Below, in pieces: positions 7,377-58,740 of a stretch of 64,000 nucleotides of DNA. The position numbers and the translations under genes are program-made. The stretch is taken from the IMG/VR virus record IMGVR_UViG_3300035670_000163, positions 1 through 64,000 of that record; one strand, given 5' to 3'. Positions within the stretch are counted from its first letter, which is position 1; the number at the start of each line of letters is the position of its first letter. The notes below the pieces were generated by a model that did no database searches, was not told where the DNA came from, and worked only from the letters and a program-made list of their open reading frames with translations. Source of the stretch: a virus.

Positions 7377-8708
7377 TTACATCAGGTTAGCAATCTTGAA
7401 TGCACGATAGTACAGGTTGGTCTTGGCGTTAATAACACCCAGGCCTTGGGTAGTACCTTCGGCAAACGGATTAGCAACCAGGCCGTAACGTGTTTTGAAA
7501 CCAATCTTCGGTTGGAAGTTGTTGGTGTCAACGGCACGGACCATTTGCAGCGGAACGTATGGGCAGTAGAACAGACCAGCGTCATAGGCATTGGTACCCT
7601 TATAACCCATAACAGCAAACTCAGCGGTCGAGTTAGCAGAGAAATAAGGATCAATGTAAACCTTGATGCGACCAAACAGTGTACCAGCAAATGTATTGCC
7701 AGTATCATCAACTGTCAGGTTAACTTGGCTATTCAGAGCCGATTGGTAGTCAAGCAGACCAGCCATGGCCAGAGCAGAAGCAACGTCAGACGAACAAATC
7801 ATGACGTTACCTTTGCCACGACGGGTTGTCTTGGCGATAACGTTAGCTTCACGCTCGAGTTGGAAAGCCAGACCCTTGATCTTCTCAACCATCCAGCGAC
7901 CGTTGGAGTCGGTGTCAAGGTCAAAAGTACCAGCAGTCGTTGTACCAACTTGGGCACCAACTTTAGCAGAAGTATAGATTGTGCGGATAACTTCACGGTT
8001 GATCTCAGCCAGGATTTCTGTCGAGAGGATGTTAGCCAGTTCTGTTTCGGCATCCAGACCATGAACAGCTTTCAGGTCTTGAGCGAGTTCCATCGAGTAC
8101 TCAGCTTTCAGAGCACGGGACTTAGCAGTAACGGAAACTTTCTCAATCGAGAAGGCCATTTCGTTGAAGGTCAGGTCTTCGGCAACAGAGGTAGCCATAG
8201 CGGTACCAGTTGTCATGACCGAGGTGTTGAATACGTCACCACCAGAAGTGTCACCTTCCAGAGTGATAGCGCCTTGAGCAGCTTTAGTACCGGAGAAGCC
8301 TGTGTTAGCCTCATTGTAGAAGGCCTCAACAGCACCAGCGGTAACGTTTTGAGCAGCGTAGGTCGAACGCATTGCGAAGATCAGGCCTGTAGGACCAGTC
8401 ATTGGCTGAACGCCACACAGATCATAAGCGATCAGGTTTGGCAACGAACGACGGACCAAAGAGATCAGGATTGGGTCGAAACCGGCAACTGGACCGCCAG
8501 CAGCAGAACCACCCGAATAACCTGTACCACCCAGCGAGTTCAGCGGAGCTGTCTCTTGCAGAACACCAGCAGCCTTTTGCATTTCTTGAGCTTGGTTCTC
8601 AAGAATAACGGCTGTAACGGCCTTACGATATGGATCTTTAATGGCTGGCAGGTCTGGATGGTCCAGAACGCCTTCCCATTTCTTTTGTAAATTTTCGGAC
8701 AAATACAT
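7377..8708 (-). CDS. 23: Major capsid protein gp23
   Basis: Precursor of the main shell protein, 443 residues (T4 gp23 is 521). The N-terminal region (residues 1-52) is helical and ends with LQE before TAPLNS, fitting the (I/L)xE rule of the gp21 protease, so mature capsid probably starts near residue 53. Downstream blocks such as FDPILISLVRRSLPNLIAYD, GVQPMTGPTGLIFAM and LEREANVIAKTTRRGKGN are characteristic of gp23. AAGGAG lies before the ATG. Codons are visibly more G+C-rich at third positions than in the fibre genes, as expected for the most highly expressed product. It follows gp22 by 17 bases and is closed by a strong terminator. Confidence 0.97.
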   Translation of the reverse strand: MYLSENLQKKWEGVLDHPDLPAIKDPYRKAVTAVILENQAQEMQKAAGVLQETAPLNSLGGTGYSGGSAAGGPVAGFDPILISLVRRSLPNLIAYDLCGVQPMTGPTGLIFAMRSTYAAQNVTAGAVEAFYNEANTGFSGTKAAQGAITLEGDTSGGDVFNTSVMTTGTAMATSVAEDLTFNEMAFSIEKVSVTAKSRALKAEYSMELAQDLKAVHGLDAETELANILSTEILAEINREVIRTIYTSAKVGAQVGTTTAGTFDLDTDSNGRWMVEKIKGLAFQLEREANVIAKTTRRGKGNVMICSSDVASALAMAGLLDYQSALNSQVNLTVDDTGNTFAGTLFGRIKVYIDPYFSANSTAEFAVMGYKGTNAYDAGLFYCPYVPLQMVRAVDTNNFQPKIGFKTRYGLVANPFAEGTTQGLGVINAKTNLYYRAFKIANLM

Positions 8709-40344: not shown

Positions 40345-40677
40345 TTATCTCGTTACGTTAGGTAAAACGGTTATGATTCCTTCAAAAATTCTGGTCACTT
40401 CTCCATTACCATCATCAATTTCGACATCATAAACGTACCTTCCAGCAGTCAGATTTGCAGTGTTGGCCGCAGACATGGACATGGTAATCTCACCTAAAGT
40501 TGGTGTAGAAACCGAGACTTCAAATTCTTTATAAGAGGATGTGTAATAGGAACGGCGCATCATTGATCTGGCCGTGTAACCCACCAAGTTTTGAGGGGTG
40601 CCGGTACCATCATTTACGTTAATTACCGTATTAAATGTTGCACCTTGATCGAGGGTGAGTTCTACAAATTCTGCCAA
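40345..40677 (-). CDS. Small virion-associated protein, BppU-like
   Basis: A 110-residue protein (FVELTLDQGATFNTVINVND, QNLVGYTARSMMRRSYYTSS, ending YDVEIDDGNGEVTRIFEGII). This is the pattern of a small Ig-like domain common in phages of many hosts and related in outline to the N-terminal domain of baseplate upper proteins. In marine T4-like phages such genes lie next to fibre genes. I infer a baseplate- or fibre-attachment role; the assignment is by pattern only. Confidence 0.7.
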   Translation of the reverse strand: MAEFVELTLDQGATFNTVINVNDGTGTPQNLVGYTARSMMRRSYYTSSYKEFEVSVSTPTLGEITMSMSAANTANLTAGRYVYDVEIDDGNGEVTRIFEGIITVLPNVTR

Positions 40678-40727: not shown

Positions 40728-41285
40728 TCACCATCTAGGATTTTCATTCAATTGTTGGAAAAATATATCTGGATTGACTTTCCAAAAGGTCTGTTTGTGT
40801 CCTCTATACTCTTTTTCACATACTTTTTCCACCATTCTAGTGCTTTGAAAGATGGGCATACAAATATTATGCATCAATTTTAGGCTTGCCTCTGATGAAT
40901 CGTGTGTTGTAATATAGAGGTTTGAGCCCTTTGGAGCCCATTCTATGCAAATAGGTATTAAAAACTGCGCTGTTGCATTTTGGTGATGTTTTATTCCGTA
41001 TTTTGTTCTAAGATTTTTGATTTCGGTATCTTCAGAATGAACGCACGATCTAACTCCAATTCTATAACTATTTTCACCCATGAAATCAAAAGAATGTGCA
41101 GCTACAGAACCTATTGCTTTTCCTTTTTTAAATAGAATCCAAACTTTCCATTCTTTTTCGTTAAGTAAAGGCTTAATCATTGTATCATAACTAGAGTTGT
41201 TAATGAATCCTTTTTCTTTTGATTTTTGATAAAAGTAACTTAAATCTAAACTTTCAGACCAATCAACGATTTTGTAATCAGACAT
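40728..41285 (-). CDS. Putative GNAT-like acyltransferase
   Basis: A 185-residue protein with a layout that recalls the GNAT fold: N-terminal helices, a strand pair KVWILFKKGKAIGSVAAHSF, a central strand YRIGVRSCVHSE and a late helix SSEASLKLMHNICMPIF. The classical acetyl-CoA binding Q/RxxGxG/A loop is not clear, so activity is uncertain. It is the last minus-strand gene before the divergent plus-strand cassette, and its start codon overlaps a CATAAATA box facing the other way. It may belong functionally with the cassette (modifying sugars or amino acids) or be unrelated. Confidence 0.55.
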   Translation of the reverse strand: MSDYKIVDWSESLDLSYFYQKSKEKGFINNSSYDTMIKPLLNEKEWKVWILFKKGKAIGSVAAHSFDFMGENSYRIGVRSCVHSEDTEIKNLRTKYGIKHHQNATAQFLIPICIEWAPKGSNLYITTHDSSEASLKLMHNICMPIFQSTRMVEKVCEKEYRGHKQTFWKVNPDIFFQQLNENPRW

Positions 41286-41290
41286 AAATA
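41283..41290 (+). promoter_or_regulatory. Possible late promoter (CATAAATA) for the plus-strand cassette
   Basis: CATAAATA on the plus strand, 39 bases before the first cassette ATG, the same variant as upstream of gp18. The CAT is also the start codon complement of the leftward gene. No convincing -35/-10 pair is seen in this gap, so it is the best candidate. Confidence 0.4.
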
Positions 41291-41310: not shown

Positions 41311-41318
41311 TATTTATC
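41311..41318 (-). promoter_or_regulatory. Possible late promoter (GATAAATA) for the leftward gene
   Basis: GATAAATA on the minus strand, 25 bases before the ATG at 41285. It faces opposite to the box at 41283-41290, making an overlapping divergent pair. Two boxes in a 44-base gap are suggestive, but AT-rich sequence makes such matches easy. Confidence 0.35.
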
Positions 41319-41329
41319 TACTGAAAAAA

Positions 41330-41836
41330 ATGATTTTACCTGAAACCAATTTTTTAGAAACCGATTTTCATTTTGACTATGTAAACATGTTAGATGACTA
41401 CTATAAAATTTATGACTCTATACAAAAAAATCAAATATATATTTCTTCTTATGATGGAAAAACTTATGAATTTAATTATGAAGATATAAAAAAAGATAAA
41501 ACTCTTTCTGAAAAAAACTGTACAAAAATAAATTCTTGGTTTTTTGGTTCTTATACGGAAAAAGTTTATAAAGAACTGAATGAAAAATTTGATATCTGTC
41601 GTGCAAGATTTATGAGAATGGATGAAAACAATAGAGCATATTCTTATCACTCCGACCCTACTGGTAGATTACACATACCACTAAAAACAAATAAAGACTG
41701 TTTATTTTTGGTGGAAGATCGAGTTTATAGTATGCAGAATTTAGGAAAACTTTACTACCTAAACACAACAAAAAAACATACTGCTTTAAATCTATCTTGG
41801 GAAGACAGAATACATTTTGTCGTTTGTTTAAAATGA
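41330..41836 (+). CDS. Aspartyl/asparaginyl beta-hydroxylase-like 2OG-Fe(II) oxygenase
   Basis: A 168-residue protein whose C-terminal half has the double-stranded beta-helix signature of the AspH/cupin-type dioxygenases: H107-S-D109 (iron ligands), then GRLHIPL, a strand CLFLVEDRVYSM, LYYLNTTKKH with H150 as third iron ligand, TALNLSWEDR with R160 as likely 2-oxoglutarate anchor and IHFVVCL. Family members hydroxylate Asp, Asn or other residues or small molecules. First gene of the plus-strand cassette, ending ATGA with the next gene. The substrate is unknown. No good ribosome binding site is seen. Confidence 0.82.
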   Translation: MILPETNFLETDFHFDYVNMLDDYYKIYDSIQKNQIYISSYDGKTYEFNYEDIKKDKTLSEKNCTKINSWFFGSYTEKVYKELNEKFDICRARFMRMDENNRAYSYHSDPTGRLHIPLKTNKDCLFLVEDRVYSMQNLGKLYYLNTTKKHTALNLSWEDRIHFVVCLK

Positions 41837-42630
41837 AACTTTTAAAAGTTATCGGAGAAGAATTTGAACTGGCATCAGCCGACCAACATATTCCAATTAA
41901 AAATTGTTTTAATATTGGTTTAGTGATATTGACACTATCAAATTATTTGTCAGACCATTTAAAATTGGTAAAATTAGGAATAAAAACAAAAGATGTAAAA
42001 TTAGCAATAATTATTGAATCTTCTAAAATAGGAAAATTTAAAACAGAAGATTTAGAAACAAATTTAGATAGAATTGTTTTTATTTGTAATCAATTTGAAA
42101 ACAATGGACTAAATTTAAATTTTAATATTTACGGTTTCGAAAAAGAAATACCATTTTTAGAACAAGAAATATCAAAATCTTTTTGGACTTTTAAAGACAA
42201 ATGGATTGGAGATAAAAAGCAAATAATGGTAAAAAAAAGTTCTAGTTTTGGTTATGATAGTTTTGGTTTTCGGACAAGAAATATTAATTTAAAGATGGCT
42301 TATGATTATGCCGAAAAAAATAATTTAGAAATTGTAGAATTTGATTATGCAGACCGATTTGCCAATGTGTTAGAAAATATGATACACTCTAAATTTGTTA
42401 TTTCAGAAAGAAGTGGATTAATGGTAATGGCCGCATTTGCTAAGGTGCCCGTTTATTTGGTTTCCGAACAACGTTTGTGTATAAACATAGATAATGAAGA
42501 AAGATTGTTAACATGGGGTAACGGCAATTTAACGACATCTAGTAGAATAGAACATATAGAAGACGGAAATATAGAACAATCTTATTTTAAAGGCAAAATC
42601 TATAATGTAACAACCAAAGATACTCTATGA
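41833..42630 (+). CDS. Glycosyltransferase-like protein (GT9/GT-B type)
   Basis: A 265-residue protein. The C-terminal motif at 185-211 (SKFVISERSGLMVMAAFAKV, PVYLV) resembles the nucleotide-sugar site of GT-B enzymes such as ADP-heptose transferases (family GT9), in which a conserved S-G-x-M-H-x-A-A segment precedes VPVxxL. Here Met replaces the His. The N-terminal half shows no motif I recognise. I chose the ATG in the ATGA overlap rather than an upstream TTG. It lies among other glycosyltransferases, which supports the call. Sugar and acceptor unknown. Confidence 0.6.
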   Translation: MKLLKVIGEEFELASADQHIPIKNCFNIGLVILTLSNYLSDHLKLVKLGIKTKDVKLAIIIESSKIGKFKTEDLETNLDRIVFICNQFENNGLNLNFNIYGFEKEIPFLEQEISKSFWTFKDKWIGDKKQIMVKKSSSFGYDSFGFRTRNINLKMAYDYAEKNNLEIVEFDYADRFANVLENMIHSKFVISERSGLMVMAAFAKVPVYLVSEQRLCINIDNEERLLTWGNGNLTTSSRIEHIEDGNIEQSYFKGKIYNVTTKDTL

Positions 42631-43244
42631 AAATTTTTATTGGTTACGATTCTCGTTATCCTGATTTATATAAGGTCTGTGAAAAATCTATTTCAAAAAA
42701 AGTTTTTCCAACACCAAATCATTTAATAAAAAAAACAAAAAAATCATCAACAGAATTTACGTATTCTAGATTTTTAATACCTTTGGTTTGTAAATTTGAA
42801 GGATGGTCTTTATTTTGCGACAGTGATTTTTTATTTTTATCGGATATAGAAGAGTTATTTAAATTGAAAAATGATGATTATGCGGTTATGGTTTGTAAAC
42901 ATAAAAATTATAAACCAAAAACCAAAATAAAAATGGATGGACAAAAACAAATTGGTTACAAAAGAAAAAATTGGTCTTCTTTAATCTTATGGAATTGTGG
43001 TCATAAAAAAAATAAGATATTAACTAAAAATTTTGTAAATGAAAAAGACGGATTATTTTTACACCAATTTAAATGGTTGTCGGATAAAGATATAGGATCT
43101 TTACCTTTAACATGGAATACGTTGGTTGGTTACAATAATTTTAAAAGTCCTAAAGCCTTACATTTTACCGATGGTGCACCACATCTAGAAAATTATAAAA
43201 ACGTTCAGTATTCAAAACTTTGGAATAAAATTAAAAATGTATAA
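42627..43244 (+). CDS. GT8-like glycosyltransferase
   Basis: A 205-residue protein starting MKIFIGYDSR, with TEFTYSRFLIP (42-52) and FCDSDFLFL (63-71), which contains the DxD metal/nucleotide-sugar motif of GT-A enzymes. The T/FSR-x(n)-DxD arrangement is typical of glycogenin/LgtC-like family GT8. WNTLVGYNN and ALHFTDGAPHLENY near the C-terminus match the family's later 'LHF' motif. It transfers a sugar from a nucleotide donor; acceptor unknown. The start overlaps its neighbour as ATGA, and the stop overlaps the radical SAM gene by 8 bases. Confidence 0.82.
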   Translation: MKIFIGYDSRYPDLYKVCEKSISKKVFPTPNHLIKKTKKSSTEFTYSRFLIPLVCKFEGWSLFCDSDFLFLSDIEELFKLKNDDYAVMVCKHKNYKPKTKIKMDGQKQIGYKRKNWSSLILWNCGHKKNKILTKNFVNEKDGLFLHQFKWLSDKDIGSLPLTWNTLVGYNNFKSPKALHFTDGAPHLENYKNVQYSKLWNKIKNV

Positions 43245-44244
43245 TGTTGAAAGATTAGATATAGGGTTAACCAATAATTGCAACGCAAAATGTCCTCAAT
43301 GTGCAAGAACAGATCCTAAAACTTTTAAAAAATATGAATGGTTACCATTAGATGAATTGTATATTGAAGATATAAAAAAAATATTACCGGCAGAACAACT
43401 TAGAAAAATAACATCAATTTCTCTTTGTGGAACTTATGGTGATCCTTTAGTTGCAAAAGACATATTTCAAATTTTAGAATATTTTTTTAGTTGCAGGCCA
43501 AATTTATATTTGACTATTCATACAAACGGTTCTATGAGAAATAATAAATGGTGGTATAAACTATGTTCTATTTTAAAAAATAAAAATGTTACGATAATTT
43601 TTGGAATCGATGGCATAGATCAAGAATCTCACTCAAAATATAGAATAAACACTTCTTTTGAAAAAATATTAGATCATGCCAATATTGCAAAGATGCATAG
43701 AATTAAAATTGAATGGCAATTTTTAATGTTTGATTACAATAAAAATTTATTAGAACGAGCTGAAAAACTGTCTAAACAATTAAATTTCGATAGATTCTTT
43801 ACAATAATTACGGATAGGCCTGATGTAGAAGGCGATTTTAAAATTCCCGATGGTTTGAAACCTAATGGTAGAGAAGAACATAATCATCTTGAAGACGAAG
43901 TGTCTTTTATTGATTGTCTCTCTAAAAACAACAAAGAAGTAAGAATAAGTGCATCTGGTTTAATATCTCCTTGTTGTTATCTTGACCATTTGTTTACTTC
44001 TTATCAACATTTTGATCAGGCTATGAAAATTGGATCTAATTTCAAAAGTATACCAATTAAAGTTATTGATAAATGTAAAGACGATGTAGAAAAAATGTTT
44101 GAGGATAATTCTTGGCACGAACTAGATGGTAAAAAACATAGTTTAGAAGGAGTATTGAAAAGTTCTTGGTTCGATAAACTGTTAAAGATGCACGATAATT
44201 TAGAACCATTTAGATGTTTTAATGTTTGCGGAAAAAAAACATAA
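43237..44244 (+). CDS. Radical SAM protein with SPASM-like C-terminus
   Basis: A 335-residue protein. Cluster motif CNAKCPQC (C15, C19, C22) is the CX3CX2C of the radical SAM superfamily, followed by CGTYGDPL (64-71, the SAM-binding GGE-like motif) and IFGIDGID (121-128). Further cysteines (C227, C246, C247, C277, C327, C331) fit an auxiliary iron-sulfur SPASM-like domain, often found in enzymes that modify peptides. The reaction cannot be deduced. It sits in an operon with glycosyltransferases and a 2OG oxygenase, so modification of a sugar or protein is a reasonable inference. Confidence 0.9.
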   Translation: MYNVERLDIGLTNNCNAKCPQCARTDPKTFKKYEWLPLDELYIEDIKKILPAEQLRKITSISLCGTYGDPLVAKDIFQILEYFFSCRPNLYLTIHTNGSMRNNKWWYKLCSILKNKNVTIIFGIDGIDQESHSKYRINTSFEKILDHANIAKMHRIKIEWQFLMFDYNKNLLERAEKLSKQLNFDRFFTIITDRPDVEGDFKIPDGLKPNGREEHNHLEDEVSFIDCLSKNNKEVRISASGLISPCCYLDHLFTSYQHFDQAMKIGSNFKSIPIKVIDKCKDDVEKMFEDNSWHELDGKKHSLEGVLKSSWFDKLLKMHDNLEPFRCFNVCGKKT

Positions 44245-44882
44245 TGAATTTTTATTGTATAAAACATGGCACTAAGTATTCTGCTGAATTTGTCAATAAA
44301 TTAAATAACATGATTGGCCGGCATTGGATAGGAGAATACAAACTCTATTGTATTACTGAAGATTCTGAAGGTGTTGTATGTGATACGATAGAACTTCCTA
44401 ATTATGGTCTAGAAAAATGGTGGACTAAAATATGTTTGTTTGATGAGTCATTTTTGCAAGAAGGTATATTTTTAGATTTAGACATAATTATCCGAGACAA
44501 TATAAATTGGATGTTTGAACCATCAGAAGAAATGAAATTTTTATATACTGATTGGGTTAATCTCGAACAATTACATAAAGATACAGTATCAAATAGAACT
44601 CGATATTGTTCAATCAACTCTTCTGTTCTATGTTGGAACAAAGAAACAAAACGGCAATATATCTTCGATGATTTTATGAAAAACAAAGATAAGATTCTTT
44701 TCTCTTTTACTGGAATAGATTCTTTTATCGAACACCGACACAAATATGATTTGTATGCAACAGGCAAAGCTTATTCATACCATAAAAGTTTAGGAACCGG
44801 TTTAGAATCAGTTGTACTTTTTGATTATGGACTAAAACAAAATGAAATAAATGAAAATTGGATTAAAATGTTATGGACTTGA
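44244..44882 (+). CDS. DxD glycosyltransferase-like protein (copy 1)
   Basis: A 212-residue protein with N-terminal YCIKHGTKYSAEFVNKLNNM, a LYCITED strand, the KWWTKICLF segment and FLDLDIIIRDN (DLD at 78-80) as the likely GT-A DxD. The TAATG overlap with the radical SAM gene fixes the start. It shares the GxKYxxE(F/Y)VNxL start with two genes further along the cassette (45499 and 46269), so these are paralogs. Family outside phages not identified; marine phages carry similar proteins. Confidence 0.72.
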   Translation: MNFYCIKHGTKYSAEFVNKLNNMIGRHWIGEYKLYCITEDSEGVVCDTIELPNYGLEKWWTKICLFDESFLQEGIFLDLDIIIRDNINWMFEPSEEMKFLYTDWVNLEQLHKDTVSNRTRYCSINSSVLCWNKETKRQYIFDDFMKNKDKILFSFTGIDSFIEHRHKYDLYATGKAYSYHKSLGTGLESVVLFDYGLKQNEINENWIKMLWT

Positions 44883-45502
44883 GAACACATACAATGAAAA
44901 AATTTCCAATCTCTGTTTGGGATTGGTCTGAAATGATACAATTTATACGAAGAAATTATTCATATAGAATAGAAGACTTTGCAAAATCATTTTCAGAAAA
45001 TCAATTTGTGTCGAAAACTTGGTTGGTTGAAAGACTTTCTTTACACAGCATTTGTGATGTTCCGGATAAAACTATTTGGATTTTAGGTTCTTGGTATGGA
45101 ACACTAATTGTTCCTTTACTTTATAAAAATATACCTAAAATAAAAGAGATAAATCTTGTAGACTATGATGAAGAAAATTTAATTATAGCCAAACAATTAT
45201 TTGGTACTCTTGTTAAGACACATGTAAAAGATATAAATTTTGATTTAGATTATTTGAAATCAGATATTATTATTAACACTTCTTGCGAACACATGTATCC
45301 AATGAAAGATTATAATTTTTCTGGTCTTTGTGTGTTTCAATCTAATAATTTTGACAAAGAACCTGCACACATAAACTGCGTAAACAGCTTACAAGAATTT
45401 AAAAATCAAAGTGGTTTATCTAAAATAGATTTTGAAGGTGAAATAAATTTTCACAAATACGACAACAATTACAAAAGATACATGTTGATTGGTGAAAAAT
45501 GA
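44873..45502 (+). CDS. Class I SAM-dependent methyltransferase-like protein
   Basis: A 209-residue protein. IWILGSWYGT (68-77) fits the glycine-rich SAM loop, INLVDYDEEN (93-102) the acidic end of strand 2, and SDIIINTSCEHM (130-141) strand 4. This gives a Rossmann-like class I methyltransferase outline with a shortened C-terminus. Two starts are possible: ATG at 44873, overlapping the preceding stop by 10 bases, and ATG at 44894; coupling favours the first. Acceptor unknown; methylation of a glycan or nucleotide-sugar product of the cassette is an inference. Confidence 0.65.
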   Translation: MDLRTHTMKKFPISVWDWSEMIQFIRRNYSYRIEDFAKSFSENQFVSKTWLVERLSLHSICDVPDKTIWILGSWYGTLIVPLLYKNIPKIKEINLVDYDEENLIIAKQLFGTLVKTHVKDINFDLDYLKSDIIINTSCEHMYPMKDYNFSGLCVFQSNNFDKEPAHINCVNSLQEFKNQSGLSKIDFEGEINFHKYDNNYKRYMLIGEK

Positions 45503-46272
45503 TACATGTGATTTGTAGTCGCTGGGGACAAAAATATTCTATTGAATATGTGAATAATTTATATTCTATGGTAAAAAGAAATTTACCTACAAAATTTAAA
45601 TTCTATTGTCAGACTGATGACACAAAAGGACTGAATAAAAAAATTACAGTTCTACCTTTTCTTAATGATCTTCCAGAATCTACACCAGAAGAAATGTATT
45701 CTTCTCCAGACAAAAAGAATAACTTGCCTAGACTTTGGGACCGACCAAAATTAAACTATTTTAATCCTCATTGTTGGGGTATTGATGGTACAAAAATAGC
45801 TTTAGATTTGGACTTAATAATTCAAAATGACATGACACCAATTTTAGATTCATTTAAGGATAAGCCAATAACAGGCCGTTCATGGTGGCACAATATGAAA
45901 TTAGAATGGGATCCAAATTGGAGAAAAAGATATGGTGCCAGAAACAATGGTGGATTTTATATGTGGGAAGGCAATCAATTTGAAGATATCTGGAAAGATT
46001 TAAAAGAAAATTGGAAAAAAATTTACTTTGTATTTACTGGCGGATCAGACAACTTTATTACAACAAGACACTTAGAGAAGTTTGATTTTGTTTCACACGA
46101 ACATTACTATTCTTTTAATAGAGGATGTAAATGGCCAGAAGATTTAACCAGGCACAAGTTTAGACCAGAAAAAATTATTTGCGTTTTCAATACTGATCCT
46201 GGCAATGCAACAAATTTTGAATTGCATCAAGCCATAAAAATCTATCCTTATCTGAAAGACTATTGGAAATGA
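45499..46272 (+). CDS. DxD glycosyltransferase-like protein (copy 2)
   Basis: A 257-residue paralog with N-terminal VICSRWGQKYSIEYVNNLYS and FYCQTDDT, and DLDLIIQND (DLD at 103-105). Compared with copy 1 it has an added loop of about 25 residues before the DxD (ESTPEEMYSSPDKKNNLPRL) and a C-terminal region with FTGGSDNFITTRHLEKF like the FTGIDSFIEHRH part of copy 1. The ATGA start overlap shows coupling to the methyltransferase-like gene. Confidence 0.75.
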   Translation: MIHVICSRWGQKYSIEYVNNLYSMVKRNLPTKFKFYCQTDDTKGLNKKITVLPFLNDLPESTPEEMYSSPDKKNNLPRLWDRPKLNYFNPHCWGIDGTKIALDLDLIIQNDMTPILDSFKDKPITGRSWWHNMKLEWDPNWRKRYGARNNGGFYMWEGNQFEDIWKDLKENWKKIYFVFTGGSDNFITTRHLEKFDFVSHEHYYSFNRGCKWPEDLTRHKFRPEKIICVFNTDPGNATNFELHQAIKIYPYLKDYWK

Positions 46273-46901
46273 AAATTTTTGCAGTAAGAATTGGCGAAAA
46301 ATATGGACCAGAATATGAAATTTATCTAAAAAGTAAGTTACCAAACATTGAATTTATGAATGTCGCAAAAGAAAATTTTCTTTTTCAATGGAACAAACTT
46401 CATTTTTTTAATTTGAATATTGACGAAGAGATTTGTGTCATTGATATAGACATCTTACTTATCAATGAATATCAAAAACTATTTGAATACCCAATACAAA
46501 GAGGTGAATTTCTTTCTATAAGGTCTTGGTGGGAACATGAAGGTTCTTGTTTATTAAACGGAGGTTTCTATAAATTTTTTCCGAGAGATACACAATACAT
46601 CTATGAAGAATTTAAAAAAAATAAAAAATATTGGGAAAACTATTTTATAGAAAAAAAATTAAAGCCAGGACCAATCAATGGAGAAGAAAACTTTGTTGAA
46701 TATATGGTCAATCAAAAGTTAAATTTGAAATTTGTACCTGAGACTTGGGCTTGTAGAATGATATCAGAACCTTCAAATGAATGGTTGAAGAATATCAATT
46801 TAAAATATCCAGGAAATTATATGTTTTTAGGTGACAAGTACAATCAAGAAATTAAACTAGTACATTTTACAAAAGCATTTAATTATCCACAACATTTTTA
46901 A
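46269..46901 (+). CDS. DxD glycosyltransferase-like protein (copy 3)
   Basis: A 210-residue protein, last of the cassette. N-terminal FAVRIGEKYGPEYEIYL matches the copy 1 and 2 starts, and VIDIDILLINE (DID at 59-61) occupies the DxD place. Then RSWWEHEGSCLLNGGFYKF resembles the RSWW and NNGGFYMW segments of copy 2. The start is the ATG in an ATGA overlap (a TTG six bases upstream is less likely). Its 3' end overlaps the convergent minus-strand gene by 23 bases. More diverged than the other two, so function may differ. Confidence 0.7.
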   Translation: MKIFAVRIGEKYGPEYEIYLKSKLPNIEFMNVAKENFLFQWNKLHFFNLNIDEEICVIDIDILLINEYQKLFEYPIQRGEFLSIRSWWEHEGSCLLNGGFYKFFPRDTQYIYEEFKKNKKYWENYFIEKKLKPGPINGEENFVEYMVNQKLNLKFVPETWACRMISEPSNEWLKNINLKYPGNYMFLGDKYNQEIKLVHFTKAFNYPQHF

Positions 46902-47376
46902 CTATAAGAATCAAGTCAATAGGACTTTTTGATTGACGAATAGAATCTTTAATTTCATCTGAAGCATTTTGAATTTTTTCTAAATCAAATAAATGCAATT
47001 TAAATTCAAAAAGTCTTTCTTTATGTGATTCTTTTGTTTCATCAAAAAAGAACAATGTTTCAACAATATCTGTTTTATAGTAAACATCACCATTTGTAAA
47101 TGTTGCATCTACACTAATTTTTCCCGATTCAATCAATCTTTTGTTAAATTCTAAAAAGGCTTCATTTTGATCTTGAATCCATTTTTTGGTATTGTTTTCT
47201 ATTTCATCAATTGTAAATATCTTTAAGAGTTCAATAAAGTCTTCCTGTTCACTGTCAACTCCAACAATATGCGTAATGATAGAATCATTTGGTCCTTTAT
47301 AAAGAACCTCAATGTCTTTTTTTTGATTGTCGATAAATCTAGCAGATAAAATATTTTGTTCATTAAAAAAAATCAT
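46879..47376 (-). CDS. Hypothetical protein, convergent with the cassette
   Basis: A 165-residue protein with no family I recognise. It alternates strand-like segments (ILSARFIDNQKKDIEVLYKG) and helices (KKWIQDQNEAFLEFNKRLIE, HKERLFEFKLHLFDLEKIQN) and is rich in Lys, Glu and Asp, without Cys. The start codon lies right at the stop codon of the virion protein upstream, so it belongs to the minus-strand fibre transcript. Its last 23 bases lie under the end of the plus-strand cassette, marking the insertion edge of that cassette. Confidence 0.6.
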   Translation of the reverse strand: MIFFNEQNILSARFIDNQKKDIEVLYKGPNDSIITHIVGVDSEQEDFIELLKIFTIDEIENNTKKWIQDQNEAFLEFNKRLIESGKISVDATFTNGDVYYKTDIVETLFFFDETKESHKERLFEFKLHLFDLEKIQNASDEIKDSIRQSKSPIDLILIVKNVVDN

Positions 47377-48317
47377 TATTCTTTCCTTACTTTTAAGTAT
47401 GACGTATATGATGATAGAGTTCCATTTGGAAATTCTTGTGCTCTATAATCATCAGCATTCACAAATCTTGTTTGATAATTTCCAGATCCACCTTGTAATT
47501 CTGTATCTGTAACTCCACCACAACTATTACCATCAACGTTATTATTGACGTTAAAATTTACTAAGTTTATTCCATATCTTATTCTATAACCAGAAACGTT
47601 TGTTGCCACAAATCTAATAATTGCACTGAGCAAACTATTGAAATTGGCTTCAGAATAAATTTGTATATCTGGATTACTAGAAGAAGTAGCTTTTACAGGT
47701 ACAGTATATGATGTAGAAGAATCATTTCTTTTATACAAATATGATCTAGATACTTCTACTGGTTGATCTGTTGTTTCAGGTATTTCTGAAGCATTATATG
47801 CAGCCAAATTGGCTTTAGTGTCAATATGAATTGGTGTACCCGAAACAGAAGTATAACCAGATGGTGTTGATGTAGATAATGTATAAACTGCACTAGAAGC
47901 AATCAAACTATCTATGACACTAAAAGCAAATGTATCGTACATGTCTTGTAAAGACATTGCTTGTAAATTACCAGTGTTTGTATAAAATAAAGGAAAACCT
48001 ACTAAATTAGTATCTGATGGAACAGTAAGAGAAGCTATATTCTGATTAAGGGTCCTATATTCCGTGGTAATATAAAGAGGTTCAGAAGTTTCAGCTTCAG
48101 TAGGATACCTTTCAGTTCTTGCTAAAGCATTACCTGCTGTTAATCTCCAATCATATTGTAAGATTCCTAAATTTCCTCCACTCCCAACAACAGATAAAGA
48201 AACACTAGGGTTAGCAATATATCTCCAAAACATCTGTGATCTAATGTCGCTTATTTGAGAATCACTCAGTTCACGAAGATTTCCGTTAAAATAATATAGA
48301 GGTCTACGAAAAGCCAT
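47376..48317 (-). CDS. Conserved virion structural protein
   Basis: A 313-residue protein starting MAFRRPLYYFNGNLRELSDS and IRSQMFWRYIANPSVSLSVV, a pattern I know from marine T4-like phages, where it is annotated as virion structural protein near tail-fibre genes. The middle has LTVPSDTNLVGFPLFY and AMSLQDMYDTF, also conserved. The C-terminus contains GGSGNYQTRFVNADDYRAQE. It overlaps the downstream gene by a single base. No enzyme motif; likely a baseplate- or fibre-associated component. Confidence 0.78.
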   Translation of the reverse strand: MAFRRPLYYFNGNLRELSDSQISDIRSQMFWRYIANPSVSLSVVGSGGNLGILQYDWRLTAGNALARTERYPTEAETSEPLYITTEYRTLNQNIASLTVPSDTNLVGFPLFYTNTGNLQAMSLQDMYDTFAFSVIDSLIASSAVYTLSTSTPSGYTSVSGTPIHIDTKANLAAYNASEIPETTDQPVEVSRSYLYKRNDSSTSYTVPVKATSSSNPDIQIYSEANFNSLLSAIIRFVATNVSGYRIRYGINLVNFNVNNNVDGNSCGGVTDTELQGGSGNYQTRFVNADDYRAQEFPNGTLSSYTSYLKVRKE

Positions 48318-51186: not shown

Positions 51187-54100
51187 TTAACCTTCAGGCA
51201 AAGCAATAATTCTAAGGTCTTTAACTTTAGGTGTTATAGACGCATCAGTAGAAAGCAATACAATTTTGATCGAGAATATCTTGAATGAATCAAATGTTGT
51301 TCCGTTATCTGATGTATATGTAACTTGATTGTCGGTTAAAGATGGACGATATTCAAACTCAACAAAATCTGTATCTGTCAATGATGGTACTGATGTTGGA
51401 TTAAAACATTCCATCAATTGATATGGTCGATCATTAAAGTTTGTCGTATCAGATCCAGATAAAACTTTGTAATAAACTTGAATTTGAGAAACGCCTGGTC
51501 TATTTGCAGATAAGAATACACGCAAATCACCAGCATCAAATCCATCAGCTAAAGTAATTGGTTTGGTGATATATCTGGCCAAACATGGGCCACCAGAACT
51601 ATCAAATTCACTATTGAGTGCAATAGAAGCGTTCGATGTAATATCGCCTTGACCTGTACCTGGAATAGAAATCGTAAAGTCGTCATAGTAACCAGAACCA
51701 GAAGATGCAACATTGACACCAACAACATTACCTGCAGCACCATTTGTGACCAAGTATACTAAAGCACCACTACCTGTATTTGAAGAAATGGTAACGACAT
51801 TGCTATTGGAGTAACCACCGCCTGGTGCAATAATGTTGAAATCGTCAGATGTAATTTCTCCATTGTCAACGAAATTTTCCCATGCATTTAAGTACATACT
51901 TTCTAGAGAAATCAAAGGACTAATTGCATTATCAGTTGAAGAAATTGTTATGGCTACAGTAAAGTCACCTTGAGCTGAAATTTCTTTTCTGCGATTACCA
52001 ATTGCATAGTATTCGTCTTTACCCATATCATAAGTTACGAATGGAGATATATCTCGGTAAGAAGTTTCTCTTGAACCACCAACTGGTTTAGAAACAAAAG
52101 AATAATCTATCGTAATTGGACTATTGGCAAACGTCTCTAATGTTTTGCCAATCACTCTAAACTTATCGATATATTTTGCAGAAGTTTGCGTTTCATTCTG
52201 CAAGGAGAATGTGGCTGGAGACGTTGAGAAGACACATCTATCCATAACGAACATCAAATCTTCATTTAAGAATGGAACGTATTCCATTGCATTTTGAGAT
52301 TTGTATAGTGTTCCAACATATGGATTAACCGAAACATATTGGTTCGATGTGGTTGTCTGTCCTTTTTCTGCAACCCAAACTGAGTACAATGGACTATCTG
52401 TCAATACAACAAGAGAATAAAGACCAGGTTTCAAGAAGACTGGTGATCCAAATGTAAATTCTGTATAACTGGAAGAAGAAGTTGGATCAGGATTTGTTGT
52501 CGTATTGACCTCAAATGGATATTTTGTAACAATCGATTCTGGATAGATGAAGTCCGAAGACGGCAATCCATTAACTGTTGGTCTAATCTGTACTGTAACA
52601 GGTAAAGCATCATCGTCTTTTGCAGTAAAGAAAAGTTTTACATTGTCAACAAAAAGTCCATTTGGATAAACTTCCGAATCGATAAAGAATGTTTGAGCCA
52701 GTGGATCAACTCTCCATGTGCTGGTAATATTTGATGTTGATGTTGACGATTGCAGTAACGGTGTCGTTGCATTACCAACAAACTTCACACCAACATCTAT
52801 ATTGTAAACTGTATCAACTAATGTAGTTTTATTTAATTTTACACCAGAAGAAACAAAAGTTTTTTCAGCAAAAGAGATGGCATCTAAGTCGTAACTGTTA
52901 TTGAAAGATTCGGTAATTCTAAGATTTCTTTCGCCATTTCTAAATGTTGCAGCAGGAGGATAGAATACACCAGAAACATCACCTGCTTTATTGGCTCTAA
53001 GTCCATTACTATCATTTCTATTGTTACCAATTGTATAAATCCAAGAACCACTTCTTTCGGTTGAAGATGTAGTTTCAGAAATTGTAGCTACTTTTGTTGT
53101 TGTATTATAAGAAACAATATTATAGATTGCACCGTGACCTTCTGCACTTCCAGTCTGTCTAACCAATGTAACTGTATTACCAGAAATATCAACAGATGGA
53201 GCTTCGGTATCTAAAGTAATTGTATTTTCAGAAACTCCTCTGGTCATACCAGATTTGTGTTCGATTACAGAATCAATAGAAAGTGTTGATTGAGAATCGA
53301 TACCAAATATAAATTTGCCAGTTAAAGATTTCCCTGTTTCATTAACAATGCTAACATTAGAGGTACCTTTTTCACTATTTGTAACAATGACAGCCGAATA
53401 ATTTGTTCCACCAGCAAAATAAGAACTAATGTTTGAAGCCAAATCTGTTTGGGTATTTGCAATAAGTGCAATCTCACCTGCAATCAAAGGAGAAGTATTC
53501 GAAAGATCAACAATATTTGGAACAATAACATAATTATCAACAGCAACATCATCAAAATAAACATAATATCTCGAACTTGGTTTTAAACTTGTTCCATTAA
53601 ATGTTATTGCCGTTGGTTTAATATATGGTTGAATTGATAAATCAGTTACGAATGTACCAACATCAACTTGAGAAGATGAAACCGAAAACTGATTCATGTT
53701 CAGTTCGGCACCTTGAGAAATGTAGACTTTATCGGTCGTAGTTCTCAGATTACCAAATTGGTTTCCACCTAAGTTTACAGTTTGATCTGTTACACTTGTT
53801 ACTGTTTCAAACCATTTAGTGTCAACAACTTTAGCAAAAGGATTATCTTTATCGTTTACCCAAGTTGGATTTTGATCTGAGATATATTTGAACGATTCGT
53901 TAACAAAGTTGAAGGCTTCCTCTAATCCATTTACAGAGTTGAGTGTAACTTTGGCAGTATAACCAGTATCAACTTCGCTTGTAAATTCTGGGAATAATTT
54001 TAAATTACCTTTAAAATTGGCAAATAAAGCACTTGCGATTGCAATAGACTTTGTAGCATAAGGCTGTTGAGCAAAGGTCGATGTAGTATAATCTAACATC

Positions 54101-57100
54101 AATGATTTTTGATCGCCTGTACCAACCGCAGCATATGAACCGGAAGTATTTGCTTCGGACCATTTAAGTTTGAAAGTTCTCATTAGAGAAGCTGGTTTTA
54201 ATTCACCATTTTCAATAAGATTTCTATTGTCAAACCCAACATCTCCATATGTAGCCTGAACATCTCTTGTTGTAAAGTTATCTACAACAATACCATATTT
54301 CGATCTTTCTAGTCCGTTTGCATCAAGAATCTTAGAGTCTGCTGCATTTTTCTCTAATGATGAAAGTGCAACATAGTATTCGAGACCTTTGATTCTATTC
54401 TCAAAAGAACCAATGTCATTCATTGTGAATCTTCTATTATTCTTAAATGTGGTTGAGATATCTTTAACTGTTTCCGTATATGCCGGAATGTTTAAAGTAT
54501 AAATCAACATATCATTAGAATCTGTTGGCGGCGGAACAGGAGTTACCGCAGATTTACCAGAAACAACAGCAAATTCTTTTGATGGTTTAACAACAATCTT
54601 ATCGATTCTGCTGAGATAGTATTCAAAACTAAATTCCGCAACTTCATCTGGATCAGCGTTAACTGCACCAGAATAAGTGTCAGCTGCAATATCTCTTGTA
54701 GGCCTAAAGTCTAAACAGGATCTCATCGAAATAACTTTACCTGCATCAGCATCTAAAAACTTAGCCATATCATCATATGTGAAATTTGAGCCAGTTTTTA
54801 AATAAGAATCTACTGTAAACAGACCATTGTTTTGTGGAGATGGTGCAGATTGGTGGTCTAGATATTTAAATAATACCAATACAGTTGAACCTGTTGGAGA
54901 ACTGTATCCTCTTTTTAATTTAATCGATGCGTGGTCGTAGTGTGTTTTTCTTTGACCATTATCAAATTCGTAATTATTTGTAACATCATATGTAGAATCT
55001 GTCAACATGGCTGTAGTAACATTTCCAGTTGATTTAGAATCAATAATTTTTACAATTTGATAAACGTCAGGAACTTGAAGACTTACAGATGTTCCTGGTG
55101 TTTTTAAATCTGAAACAGTATTTGCGCCATCAAAGAAAATAGCACCAACATCAGTGAATAATAAACCATCAGTAACATTAACGACTGTACCTGTATTTCC
55201 AGATGTTAGTGAATCACCAGCAGTATCTAAATTATATGGTACTTTTTCATGCAACGAGGTTGAAAGTGGCAATAATTGTTTACCACGAATAGCACCACTC
55301 GTTCCATCTTCAGCATTATTAACTTTTGTGGTGACTAAGAAATCAGCTTTAACGCCTGCTGTATTCAAATCAATTTCAATGGAACTATCACTAATAGCTG
55401 TAACTGTAAACAGATTGTTTGCAAGACTTAATACTGTGTTTGGTGTGATACCAGAGGTGCCATTAGATGTAGAATCATAACGAACGAAACAAATAATGTT
55501 CTGTAAAATTTGAGAATCGGATAATGTTCCTGGAGAACCAGCAAACGGGAAAGTATCTGTACCAATTGTATTTAATGTGATGACACCACCAGCATTTGAA
55601 ATTTTATCTGCATAAACTTTTCTAGCAATGAAATCTAAATTGGAAATCGAACCAGATTTCATTGATTCAAATGGTGTATCAAAAATTAAACTTGTACGTG
55701 TTGGTTCTGTAATAGAAGCATAACCTGTTGTGGTATCTTTAGATTGGTCGTCAACGTTAGCTTCAAATGTTAAAGATGAACCACTCTTAACAACTAAAGA
55801 CTCTGCAACTTTAAAATCAGATTCAATAGAGAATGTGTTTGATGCTGGTTCAAAAGGTAAAGCTTGTGACAATGTGATTGTTTGTGCAACACTATTCGAT
55901 TCTGTAATTAAAATAGGAGAAAGTGTTAAACCGGCTCCGTCTGTAATTCTAAAATACATGTTTGCATAAGCATTAGCTGATGCTGAAGTTGAGAAAGAAG
56001 AATCTAATTCAATAACTGTATTTGTGGAACCAGAACCTGGTAATGTGCCAGTAATTGGTGTAGAATTAACTTGCATTACACTCAAACTAAACGTATGAGT
56101 TGTTCCAACATCTGAAGCTGTCGAATCATTATACTTCATCATGTGAGCTCTCAGAGTACCAATCTTAGTCGAATTGTATTCTGAGGTAGAAGCAGTATTT
56201 ACTTCAGTAGAAGGAACGCAATGAATGTCTAACTGAGGAAAAGTTGGTAAATCCAAATAACCAGTTACATCAGAAACAATAACATAACTTGAATAGTTTG
56301 TTGGTAAATCATAATCAGAAACATTAGATGTCAAACGGGCTCTTGGGATTGTTAATTTTGTTGGCGCAATAGTCTGCACTTCATAACCACCAACATAAGC
56401 TTTACCTGGATCTAAAACAGCAGTAAATGAATCCGCATCTACAACATTGTTTGCACCATAAGCAGTTTCTTCCAAAGAAATTACAAATGGATCAACAGTG
56501 TAGTTTCCAGATTCTTCAAATGTTCTTCTTGCAAGAGTTTTTTCAATTTCATTATAGATTGGATAATCAATTTCTTTTGTTTTAACACCTTCAACAAGAC
56601 GAATAACTTCAAAGAAAGAAGACTCGTCAGTAGAATCTAAAGTTCTCTTAGAAAGTGTAGTTTCAATAACGAAACGTGTTGCACCAGGTGCCTGATAGTT
56701 AAATGCACCTTGAGCCGGATCTAAAAGAGATGTATCATCAATCTCATCAACAATTGTTTCAGTAAATTGAATACCAACTTTATATGAAGGTAATCTATTA
56801 ACTGTCGATGCGTTGTAACCAATTTTATAGAAAAGTTCCAAAACTAAAAATTGTGGAACAATCTTAACAAATTGACCTTTGAAATAATAAACACCTTCTT
56901 GAATGCTGGCAACATAAGAACGACCAACTGCACTGGTACTTCTTGCTTGTGCAAAAATGTTTTGACCAGATATTTTTAGTTCGTCTGATTCAGAAAAAGT
57001 ATCAGCACTTAAATATTTTAAAATTAAAATTGGATTTGTTGTCGTGTCATCTACAGCAATAACTTTAGCTCTAATTGTCTTTGTTGTATTATAACCAATT

Positions 57101-57387
57101 ATTGTTTTGTCTAAAAATTGACTAACGTCAACATCTTCACTATTATATTGGGAATCTAAAATTAAATAGAAAGCTCTATCATCGAGAGAAATTTTACCGC
57201 CAGTAATTGGACTACCATTTTGGAAAATATGATTACCAAACTTTTCAATTTGATTGGAAAGAATAGTTTGTAATTGAGTTAATTCACGAGCCTGTACTGA
57301 ATATCCAGGACGGAAAAGTACACGCATGAAGTTTTTATCTTCATCAAAATCATCATAGTATGGATCGTAATTAAATGTGGTAGTCAT
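51187..57387 (-). CDS. Giant DUF4815-like baseplate/fibre structural protein (2066 residues)
   Basis: N-terminal 330 residues (YDPYYDDFDEDKNFMRVLFR, ARELTQLQTILSNQIEKFGN, HIFQNGSPITGGK, VGGYEVQ) match the DUF4815 domain known from large structural proteins of marine T4-like phages. The rest is a series of beta domains, with a segment at about 900-1100 containing SCLDFRPTRDIAADTYSGAV and ENRIKGLEYYVALSSLEKNA, and a C-terminal part (DPLAQTFFIDSEVYPNGLFV, VYYKVLSGSDTTNFNDRPYQ). Directly after gp8, it takes the place of T4 gp9/gp10, which link the wedge to long and short fibres; an analogous role is inferred. The longest gene in the window. Confidence 0.85.
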   Translation of the reverse strand: MTTTFNYDPYYDDFDEDKNFMRVLFRPGYSVQARELTQLQTILSNQIEKFGNHIFQNGSPITGGKISLDDRAFYLILDSQYNSEDVDVSQFLDKTIIGYNTTKTIRAKVIAVDDTTTNPILILKYLSADTFSESDELKISGQNIFAQARSTSAVGRSYVASIQEGVYYFKGQFVKIVPQFLVLELFYKIGYNASTVNRLPSYKVGIQFTETIVDEIDDTSLLDPAQGAFNYQAPGATRFVIETTLSKRTLDSTDESSFFEVIRLVEGVKTKEIDYPIYNEIEKTLARRTFEESGNYTVDPFVISLEETAYGANNVVDADSFTAVLDPGKAYVGGYEVQTIAPTKLTIPRARLTSNVSDYDLPTNYSSYVIVSDVTGYLDLPTFPQLDIHCVPSTEVNTASTSEYNSTKIGTLRAHMMKYNDSTASDVGTTHTFSLSVMQVNSTPITGTLPGSGSTNTVIELDSSFSTSASANAYANMYFRITDGAGLTLSPILITESNSVAQTITLSQALPFEPASNTFSIESDFKVAESLVVKSGSSLTFEANVDDQSKDTTTGYASITEPTRTSLIFDTPFESMKSGSISNLDFIARKVYADKISNAGGVITLNTIGTDTFPFAGSPGTLSDSQILQNIICFVRYDSTSNGTSGITPNTVLSLANNLFTVTAISDSSIEIDLNTAGVKADFLVTTKVNNAEDGTSGAIRGKQLLPLSTSLHEKVPYNLDTAGDSLTSGNTGTVVNVTDGLLFTDVGAIFFDGANTVSDLKTPGTSVSLQVPDVYQIVKIIDSKSTGNVTTAMLTDSTYDVTNNYEFDNGQRKTHYDHASIKLKRGYSSPTGSTVLVLFKYLDHQSAPSPQNNGLFTVDSYLKTGSNFTYDDMAKFLDADAGKVISMRSCLDFRPTRDIAADTYSGAVNADPDEVAEFSFEYYLSRIDKIVVKPSKEFAVVSGKSAVTPVPPPTDSNDMLIYTLNIPAYTETVKDISTTFKNNRRFTMNDIGSFENRIKGLEYYVALSSLEKNAADSKILDANGLERSKYGIVVDNFTTRDVQATYGDVGFDNRNLIENGELKPASLMRTFKLKWSEANTSGSYAAVGTGDQKSLMLDYTTSTFAQQPYATKSIAIASALFANFKGNLKLFPEFTSEVDTGYTAKVTLNSVNGLEEAFNFVNESFKYISDQNPTWVNDKDNPFAKVVDTKWFETVTSVTDQTVNLGGNQFGNLRTTTDKVYISQGAELNMNQFSVSSSQVDVGTFVTDLSIQPYIKPTAITFNGTSLKPSSRYYVYFDDVAVDNYVIVPNIVDLSNTSPLIAGEIALIANTQTDLASNISSYFAGGTNYSAVIVTNSEKGTSNVSIVNETGKSLTGKFIFGIDSQSTLSIDSVIEHKSGMTRGVSENTITLDTEAPSVDISGNTVTLVRQTGSAEGHGAIYNIVSYNTTTKVATISETTSSTERSGSWIYTIGNNRNDSNGLRANKAGDVSGVFYPPAATFRNGERNLRITESFNNSYDLDAISFAEKTFVSSGVKLNKTTLVDTVYNIDVGVKFVGNATTPLLQSSTSTSNITSTWRVDPLAQTFFIDSEVYPNGLFVDNVKLFFTAKDDDALPVTVQIRPTVNGLPSSDFIYPESIVTKYPFEVNTTTNPDPTSSSSYTEFTFGSPVFLKPGLYSLVVLTDSPLYSVWVAEKGQTTTSNQYVSVNPYVGTLYKSQNAMEYVPFLNEDLMFVMDRCVFSTSPATFSLQNETQTSAKYIDKFRVIGKTLETFANSPITIDYSFVSKPVGGSRETSYRDISPFVTYDMGKDEYYAIGNRRKEISAQGDFTVAITISSTDNAISPLISLESMYLNAWENFVDNGEITSDDFNIIAPGGGYSNSNVVTISSNTGSGALVYLVTNGAAGNVVGVNVASSGSGYYDDFTISIPGTGQGDITSNASIALNSEFDSSGGPCLARYITKPITLADGFDAGDLRVFLSANRPGVSQIQVYYKVLSGSDTTNFNDRPYQLMECFNPTSVPSLTDTDFVEFEYRPSLTDNQVTYTSDNGTTFDSFKIFSIKIVLLSTDASITPKVKDLRIIALPEG

Positions 57388-57399
57388 TTATTCCTCGGT

Positions 57400-58740
57400 T
57401 TAAAAGCTAAGAATGAATCTAATTCTATCTGTTTGGTCAACATCTCTGGAGATTGGTGTCTTATCAGAGATATAAAGTATTTTACCAGAGTAAAGTTCTA
57501 ATGTTGGGTCTGTTTTATTTATGGCTACTCGGATTGAGCCACTTTCTAAACCTTTAATTGGTTCGTTTGTATTTAATGTACCAACTAAATTGTTTAGATA
57601 AAGTATGTTTTGTGTCTCATCAAATGAAATAACATCTGCACTAAATGTAGCTCTAGCAATATCAACACCTTGAAAAACAATTTCATCATTGTTAAAATCA
57701 CCAACACCAGGAGAAGTTTTAACTTGAGTATATAATGTTTTAATTTCTGTGTTTGCTAAAGTGGTAGTTCCATAATCATATGGATTTTTTACAATAAATG
57801 TTTCACGATATTCGTTATCGGCCGGAAATACACCAGATTCTTCACCATCGAAATCTGTATTAAACATTATGGTTGATGTATAAAGTTCTTCGACTGGATC
57901 ATATCCGTGACCATTTTGTGGAGATAAAACTACAGTTGCAGCTGCATCTGTTCCAATACCACCAGCAACATCAGTAAAGACTAAGTTTGCTTTTGTATAG
58001 TCTTGACCTCGATTTTGTATTAAAATATCTACAACTTGTCCATCAACAACGTTTGCTTTTAAAACAGCGTCTGTACCATCACCTCCAATAGTGATGATAT
58101 CTTGTGCTGCGCCGTCAACATAGTTGTTTCCAGCGTTAGTGATTCTAATAATATCAATACTTCTATTTACGGCTGATGCTCTAACAAATCTATTGTATGA
58201 TACTGGCATCCAGTTTTCCGTTAAGAATTTTTGTTTCTGTAATGAGGTCAAAGTGTACAAATATTTCCACTTATAACCATCGGAAGTTTTAAAATATGGT
58301 TCTTCTAAAGAGGAAGCAGATAGTGATAATTGTGGTTCAACCGTTGAGTTTGCAGAAGCATTATTGAACAGGCATTTAAAAACCTGATCTTTAGAATTTC
58401 TAACATAAAAATTTGTACCTGCTGGACAAACTGTGCAACCAGCGGCAGAATATACAGTATTTGCTGTCCAATCGATCCGATCAACCACAAATGAAGCGTT
58501 TTCTTGTGAAAGTCTTTTAGCTAGAATACCCTTATCGTAGTTTGCATTCAATGCTCTGATAGACTGTTCTGGTGCTGGAGCAACTTCTGTACCTGTATTC
58601 CAAGGTGTTTGCTTACCTAAAACAACATATAGATAAGACTTTTTATCTGCTGGAAGGTAAGAATTGGCACTAATGTCCAAAAGATCATAGAACTTTTGAG
58701 CCAATAAAGTTTTGAGTGATGAGGTAAGTAGTGAAGACAT
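57400..58740 (-). CDS. 8: Baseplate wedge protein gp8
   Basis: Wedge subunit of the baseplate. The match to T4 gp8 includes the N-terminal helix, YLYVVLGKQTPWN (T4 has IFITFGRSEPW), the DGYKWKYLYTL segment and a C-terminus with VDQTDRIRFILSF against T4 MDQTEEINILFTF. At 446 residues it is longer than T4 gp8 (334). An inserted beta region (GNNYVDGAAQDIITIGGDGT, IQNRGQDYTKANLVF) near 200-265 resembles repeats also found in gp6 and gp7 of this genome. The order gp25-gp6-gp7-gp8 supports the call. Confidence 0.92.
   Translation of the reverse strand: MSSLLTSSLKTLLAQKFYDLLDISANSYLPADKKSYLYVVLGKQTPWNTGTEVAPAPEQSIRALNANYDKGILAKRLSQENASFVVDRIDWTANTVYSAAGCTVCPAGTNFYVRNSKDQVFKCLFNNASANSTVEPQLSLSASSLEEPYFKTSDGYKWKYLYTLTSLQKQKFLTENWMPVSYNRFVRASAVNRSIDIIRITNAGNNYVDGAAQDIITIGGDGTDAVLKANVVDGQVVDILIQNRGQDYTKANLVFTDVAGGIGTDAAATVVLSPQNGHGYDPVEELYTSTIMFNTDFDGEESGVFPADNEYRETFIVKNPYDYGTTTLANTEIKTLYTQVKTSPGVGDFNNDEIVFQGVDIARATFSADVISFDETQNILYLNNLVGTLNTNEPIKGLESGSIRVAINKTDPTLELYSGKILYISDKTPISRDVDQTDRIRFILSF

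Follow-up and report, generated by a model that had tools for sequence, protein, structure and literature searches.

The host recognition cluster (HRC) of pelagimyophages and cyanomyophages is a hypervariable island among fibre genes, located between VrlC and a neck gene, which contains glycosyltransferases (GTs), radical SAM cassettes and lipopolysaccharide (LPS) genes and has been interpreted as modifying the host O-chain (PMC7029224, Zaragoza-Solas et al. 2020). The Campylobacter phages CP220 and CPt10 carry interchangeable modules of five radical SAM genes that are swapped en bloc (PMC2853527), and mycobacteriophages use GTs encoded in their own genomes to glycosylate proteins of the capsid and the tail tube (Freeman et al. 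2023, as cited in PMC12619734 and PMC11256854). Here, we investigated a cassette of eight plus-strand genes (c1 to c8 in order, positions 41330-46901) in the fibre region of IMG/VR virus record IMGVR_UViG_3300035670_000163, a 70.4-kb virus contig of which positions 1-64,000 were analysed (the window). We give a probability of about one half to the reading that the cassette is a modification operon of the HRC of a marine T4-like myovirus, exchanged horizontally and transcribed late, with fibre or other virion proteins as the target of decoration. The cassette itself, its inheritance as a unit, its exchange and most of the enzyme classes are well supported, while fibre or receptor-binding proteins are the presumed target.

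The phage is a T4-like marine myovirus, with a phrog_213 portal protein and a terminase that matches those of Pelagibacter phage Mosig and Synechococcus phages at 55-57%. The structural gene flanking the cassette on the right (the right anchor; Table 1) matches Mosig_00097 and gene 51187-57387 matches the VrlC gene of Mosig, and the locus has the make-up of an HRC, i.e., a variable fibre island next to VrlC with GTs and a radical SAM protein. It differs from the published description in that it forms a conserved, ordered module for which boundaries of exchange, the family of c6 and motifs of late promoters are defined, and in that we prefer virion decoration to the O-chain modification proposed there (PMC7029224). 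In CP220 and CPt10, the radical SAM proteins are related to c4 (27-31% identity) and adjoin nucleotide-diphospho-sugar transferases; in contrast to the window, there are several radical SAM genes and an amidinotransferase, and c1, c2, c3, c6 and c7 were not detectable in the stretch compared. The mycobacteriophages are unrelated, and the consulted parts of the two articles mention no radical SAM protein, hydroxylase or methyltransferase in their virion glycosylation. The preliminary description of this DNA, made from its letters alone, could match the gene combination to no described phage system, a claim that finds no support given the HRC and the Campylobacter module: the kind of locus is already known, and the novelty lies in a conserved module with defined boundaries, in its family of methyltransferases and in the probable late expression.

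A cultured relative of the locus is found in Pelagibacter phage Mosig EXVC030M, the only cultured phage in our collection with the right anchor gene. Its plus-strand cassette (60990-71305) occupies the same syntenic site, starts divergently with a mirrored pair of the T4 late promoter TATAAATA, ends in a convergent overlap and encodes homologues of the radical SAM protein, c6 and c8 at 27-33%. Unlike the cassette studied here, it has 13 genes, including nitroreductases, a sugar-type aminotransferase and a carbamoyltransferase, and no homologue of c2, c3 or c7 was detected in it. Mosig also has a second cluster of GT, sulfotransferase and methyltransferase genes with a c3 homologue (124832-130666; L003:12833-18667), which lies beside ribonucleotide reductase genes and away from the fibre locus.

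Eight overlapping plus-strand genes within a minus-strand fibre region had been described for the window, and the open reading frames (ORFs) bear this out, as all long ORFs in the flanks that were judged to be genes lie on the minus strand. Read from the sequence, every junction overlaps: ATGA at 41833 (c1/c2), 42627 (c2/c3) and 45499 (c6/c7), 8 nucleotides (nt) at 43237 (c3/c4), TAATG at 44242-44246 (c4/c5), 10 nt at 44873 (c5/c6), and ATGA at 46269 for c7/c8, or 10 nt if c8 begins at TTG 46263. The 3′ end of c8 shares 23 nt with the converging right border gene. The reported AT-richness was likewise recovered, with a GC content of 0.26-0.29 in the cassette genes against 0.33-0.42 in most of the flanks and with low GC reaching into the right border gene (0.253). 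The pooled GC3 is only modestly lower (0.155 versus 0.208), and the codon distance from the rest of the window is 0.83, whereas blocks of eight genes from the flanks reach 0.78 at the most. Elsewhere in the window, gene 7377-8708 has a GC content of 0.49, far higher than the rest. Sigma-70 promoters and intrinsic terminators are no commoner within the cassette than in shuffled sequences. The highest 19-residue hydropathy among the eight proteins is 1.27, and therefore none is expected to contain a membrane segment; by Pfam and hydropathy, no flippase or nucleotide-sugar gene was found among the eight. The gtr-type O-antigen seroconversion cluster, which consists of the membrane flippase GtrA, GtrB and a membrane GT, was considered and rejected, since none of these families was matched and no hydrophobic segment occurs in the eight proteins.

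Judged by their distribution over viral contigs, the cassette genes travel together as one enzyme set, in line with the co-occurrence expected in the preliminary description. Two contigs from a scan with c6 (L089 and L090) have seven of the eight families, arranged as in the window. A scan with c7, the most conserved gene of the module, returned 21 viral contigs at 58-69% identity, and essentially all of these have c6-c7-c8 followed by the converging right border gene (c8 of L180, L184 and L185 was seen by tblastn). c5 usually precedes this trio, and many of the contigs also have c1, c2 and c3, with the gene order preserved and with c4 replaced by an aminotransferase and a SPASM radical SAM protein. 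Sister cassettes encode an aminotransferase of pyridoxal phosphate (PLP) class I/II with a SPASM radical SAM protein, and some sister cassettes encode a DegT aminotransferase and a carbamoyltransferase. Among 38 loci chosen solely by the right anchor gene, a GT of the c5/c7/c8 type is present in 36, c6 in 35 and a radical SAM protein in 33, and 31 loci have all three. The cassette overlaps the border gene 3′ to 3′ in 54 of 57 distinct convergent pairs (median 26 nt), and in 47 of them the cassette gene that meets the border gene belongs to the c5/c7/c8 family of GTs. Gene order in these relatives divides the locus in two: c5-c6-c7-c8, which converge on the neighbouring gene, make up a 3′ end that stays constant, and the 5′ part is changeable. 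In L048 and L049 the site is almost empty, as their two anchor genes lie just 2.3 kb apart and the interval has two unknown genes next to the border gene. Phage-type cassettes with c6 also occur in three contigs binned as metagenome-assembled genomes of Pelagibacter, Rhodobacteraceae and Gammaproteobacteria (L204, L248 and L264), which for this reason look like phage contigs in bacterial bins; fibre-region genes are present in L264 and apparently in L248.

The exchanged unit appears to be larger than the eight genes of the original description, as comparisons of individual genes suggest that it also includes both border genes. In a rank test, the best-matching locus was always a cassette-type contig for the left border gene, for c1 to c8 and for the right border gene, whereas the first cassette-type contig ranked 14 of 40 for the left anchor, 92 of 117 for the right anchor, and 41 of 112 and 40 of 74 for the structural genes 51187-57387 and 57400-58740. 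The loci had been picked by c6, c7, c2 or the right anchor gene, so that the genes not used for picking are the fair evidence, and the margins for the border genes were small (120 versus 115 bits and 88 versus 77 bits). In L087, L172 and L174, a homologue or hidden Markov model match of the left border gene opens the cassette and shares the strand of the other cassette genes; the left border gene resembles an acetyltransferase by eye only, and a GNAT identity could not be confirmed. In a Mantel test on 13 loci, the window was an outlier that dominated the outcome, and this test is used neither for nor against exchange. Within the limits of the rank test, the block with both border genes has a history distinct from that of the structural backbone, and because its genes are closest to one set of phages and the backbone to another, we infer exchange as a unit. 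The earlier idea of a single acquired pathway thus stands as far as one co-travelling set is concerned; the unit seems to have moved from one T4-like lineage to another while keeping its site, and not to be a pathway freshly acquired from a host.

Several motif observations suggest that the cassette is probably expressed late in infection. The published late promoter motif of cyanomyoviruses is NATAAATA (PMC2984593), and a match to it, CATAAATA, stands at the edge of the 44-nt divergent gap in front of c1, overlapping the start codon of the opposite gene, for which a mirrored candidate, GATAAATA, is present (Table 1). The ATAAATA core is about half as frequent in the window as in shuffles (13 seen versus 28 expected), so a mirrored pair in a gap of this size is unlikely to be accidental. 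Mirrored TATAAATA pairs also occur in Mosig (L002), L033, L065 and L082. Over the compared loci, 194 of 367 cases of TATAAATA lie 8-60 nt before an ORF start, compared to about 3% under uniform placement, and the motif stands upstream of 18 of 67 distinct cassette runs, where shuffled sequences give 1.9 (at most 6 in 200 shuffles). A separate TATAAATA precedes the c5-c8 module at -24/-25 in L180, L182, L183 and L186. The window itself has four exact TATAAATA sites, all on the minus strand and each shortly upstream of a gene start.

Table 1 Coordinates of the cassette genes, candidate promoters and bordering genes in the window
Feature	Positions	Strand	Basis
Candidate late promoter CATAAATA of the cassette	41283..41290	+	40 nt before ATG 41330; matches NATAAATA
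Mirrored candidate late promoter GATAAATA of the left border gene	41311..41318	-	Motif
c1, aspartyl/asparaginyl-hydroxylase-type 2OG-Fe(II) oxygenase	41330..41836	+	PF05118, E 4e-8
c2, compact GT-B-like protein, probable glycosyltransferase	41833..42630	+	Predicted structure
c3, GT8-type glycosyltransferase	42627..43244	+	PF01501, E 4.8e-6; phrog_28018, E 7e-47
c4, radical SAM protein with SPASM/twitch-type C-terminal cysteines	43237..44244	+	PF04055, E 4.9e-11
c5, GT-A glycosyltransferase, paralogue of c7/c8	44244..44882	+	phrog_1962 glycosyltransferase, E 9e-7
c6, class I SAM-dependent methyltransferase	44873..45502	+	AlphaFold2 (AF2) and Foldseek; family mark INTSCEHM
c7, GT-A glycosyltransferase	45499..46272	+	D103-x-D105; phrog_1962 weak
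c8, GT-A glycosyltransferase, last cassette gene	46269..46901	+	D61-x-D63, NGG motif
Left border gene (185 aa), part of the putative exchanged unit	40728..41285	-	Best match is a cassette-type locus
Right border gene, small, converging on the cassette, part of the putative exchanged unit	46879..47376	-	Best match is a cassette-type locus
Right anchor, flanking structural (fibre-region) gene, synteny anchor outside the unit	47376..48317	-	40% to Mosig gene 72532-73446
Left anchor, tail-fibre-assembly family, synteny anchor outside the unit	40345..40677	-	phrog_1084/phrog_3304; 41% to Mosig_00070

All eight proteins can be read as enzymes, and most of the enzyme classes named in the preliminary description were recovered. 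The 2OG-Fe(II) oxygenase c1 matches PF05118, and its HxD...H...R residues (H107-x-D109, H150 and R160) are invariant in 25 of 25 sequences; it also has a weak likeness to a nonproteinogenic amino-acid hydroxylase model. The radical SAM/SPASM-like protein c4 matches PF04055, with invariant cysteines C15/C19/C22 (the CxxxCxxC core) and C246/C247/C327/C331 in 20 sequences. A scan of viral contigs with c4 as a single protein gave no match, and alignments and the flanking anchor were used instead. Its best sequence match with a solved structure is cytosylglucuronate decarboxylase. An identity as viperin (pVip) was rejected at 19 bits against the viperin cut-off of 180, and a PADLOC match of 26 bits spans the general radical SAM core only. 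The ‘methyltransferase-like’ c6 had no usable Pfam match, and its fold is now assigned with confidence from a predicted structure: the AF2 model (pLDDT 95.1, from a 60-sequence alignment) has class I methyltransferases as its top Foldseek matches in the PDB, with E down to 5e-8 and a TM score of up to 0.66 among the best.

The five GT-type proteins proposed earlier hold in four cases, three paralogous GT-A enzymes and one GT8, with the fifth less certain. By profile and motif comparison, c5, c7 and c8 are paralogous members of a single GT-A family, and DxD motifs are present in all three; hhalign relates c5 to c7 at 100% and to c8 at 99.5%, and c8 to c5 and c7 at 99%. The motif of c5 is a conserved D84-x-D86 (ORF numbering from TTG 44226), c7 had no match in the phage collection, and c8 matches UGGT weakly (E 0.26). 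The GT8-type c3 is 45% identical to genes of Synechococcus phage S-SCSM2R and Mosig. No match was found for c2 in Pfam or PHROG; its AF2 model (pLDDT 88.8) has best PDB matches that are almost all GT-B enzymes (POMGNT2, TibC, WaaC), weak ones with E > 1e-3 and TM about 0.4, which hints at a GT-B-like glycosyltransferase.

Relatives of c6 at about 33% identity were seen in genomes of Ensifer, Mesorhizobium, Rhizobium and Brucella/Ochrobactrum (L191-L203 and other Rhizobiales loci). These chromosomal copies appear solitary, and no function was derived from them; the one in L191 is flanked by an ABC transporter gene and a GT28-like gene. Others lie on the very large viral contigs L119 (362,810 bases) and L145 (235,363 bases), and the family may extend beyond ordinary T4-like phages.

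The enzyme types fit the building or altering of a glycan, as had been supposed. In the mechanism we propose, the GTs would take host nucleotide-sugars and assemble a short oligosaccharide, which c6 would methylate, and c1 and c4 would add a phage-specific decoration or prepare the acceptor residue; in relatives, these two are replaced or joined by aminotransferase and SPASM radical SAM, PP-loop or sulfotransferase-like genes. The most likely target would be the phage's own fibre or receptor-binding proteins, made simultaneously from neighbouring genes, so that a swap of the cassette would change the fibre surface. The preliminary description had left the choice between fibre and host surface undecided; we lean towards the fibre on three grounds, namely the motifs of late promoters, a position that is fixed within the fibre locus and the lack of membrane or sugar-nucleotide genes among the eight. 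The cassette site is at the fibre genes, beside the same small border gene. Several points weigh against fibre decoration. The late promoter of the window is motif-based and has C rather than T at its first position, and late expression would also be compatible with a change to the host surface late in infection. Enzymes like GT8 and GT9 typically belong to the synthesis of the LPS core, the published interpretation of the locus is host O-chain modification (PMC7029224), the identity of c2 and the substrate of the radical SAM protein are uncertain, and the fibre acceptor is a presumed one.

A remodelling of the host surface polysaccharide (LPS core or O-chain), which would block other phages or stop progeny from re-adsorbing to debris, is the strongest competitor, somewhat less probable than virion decoration. 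Such a role has been proposed for the GTs of the pelagimyophage locus (PMC7029224) and for GT clusters in cyanophage jumbo genomes (PMC7824862). It would suit the GT8 protein c3, the weak resemblance of c2 to GT9 heptosyltransferases and the sugar-modifying DegT aminotransferase and carbamoyltransferase of sister cassettes; however, late-promoter motifs are a poor fit for superinfection exclusion, the eight genes include no membrane GT, flippase or nucleotide-sugar gene, and the position is fixed at fibre genes. We consider it improbable that the product is a small molecule or lipid instead of a glycan on virion or envelope: the PLP class I/II aminotransferase with SPASM radical SAM in sister cassettes, the decarboxylase match of c4 and the hydroxylase likeness of c1 would agree with this, but the constant core consists of four or five GTs, while the aminotransferase and radical SAM-type genes vary. 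Phage GTs and 2OG oxygenases are also known from DNA hypermodification. For the cassette this role, noted for phage GTs in PMC12619734, is highly improbable, as its promoter motif is late and not early or middle, no hydroxymethylating, base-precursor or DNA-acting enzyme was found among the eight proteins with Pfam, PHROGs and NCBIfam, and a review sees no evidence of modified nucleotides or DNA glycosylation in cyanomyoviruses (PMC2984593).

When marine phages carry GT and radical SAM genes, the usual interpretation is auxiliary metabolism or a role at the host surface. A conserved and probably late cassette with a fixed position at the fibre locus, in most loci with the same flanking gene, offers a testable alternative, the self-decoration of the receptor-binding machinery, and a sister cassette exists in a cultured phage, Mosig on Pelagibacter HTCC1062. 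More tentatively, marine T4-like phages may share a dedicated locus that is swapped as a cassette between lineages and expressed with the virion genes, and that equips the tail fibres of the phages themselves with chemically elaborate glycans, tailored by radical SAM proteins, hydroxylases and methyltransferases; in that case, glycans as well as protein sequence would make host range or fibre protection vary.

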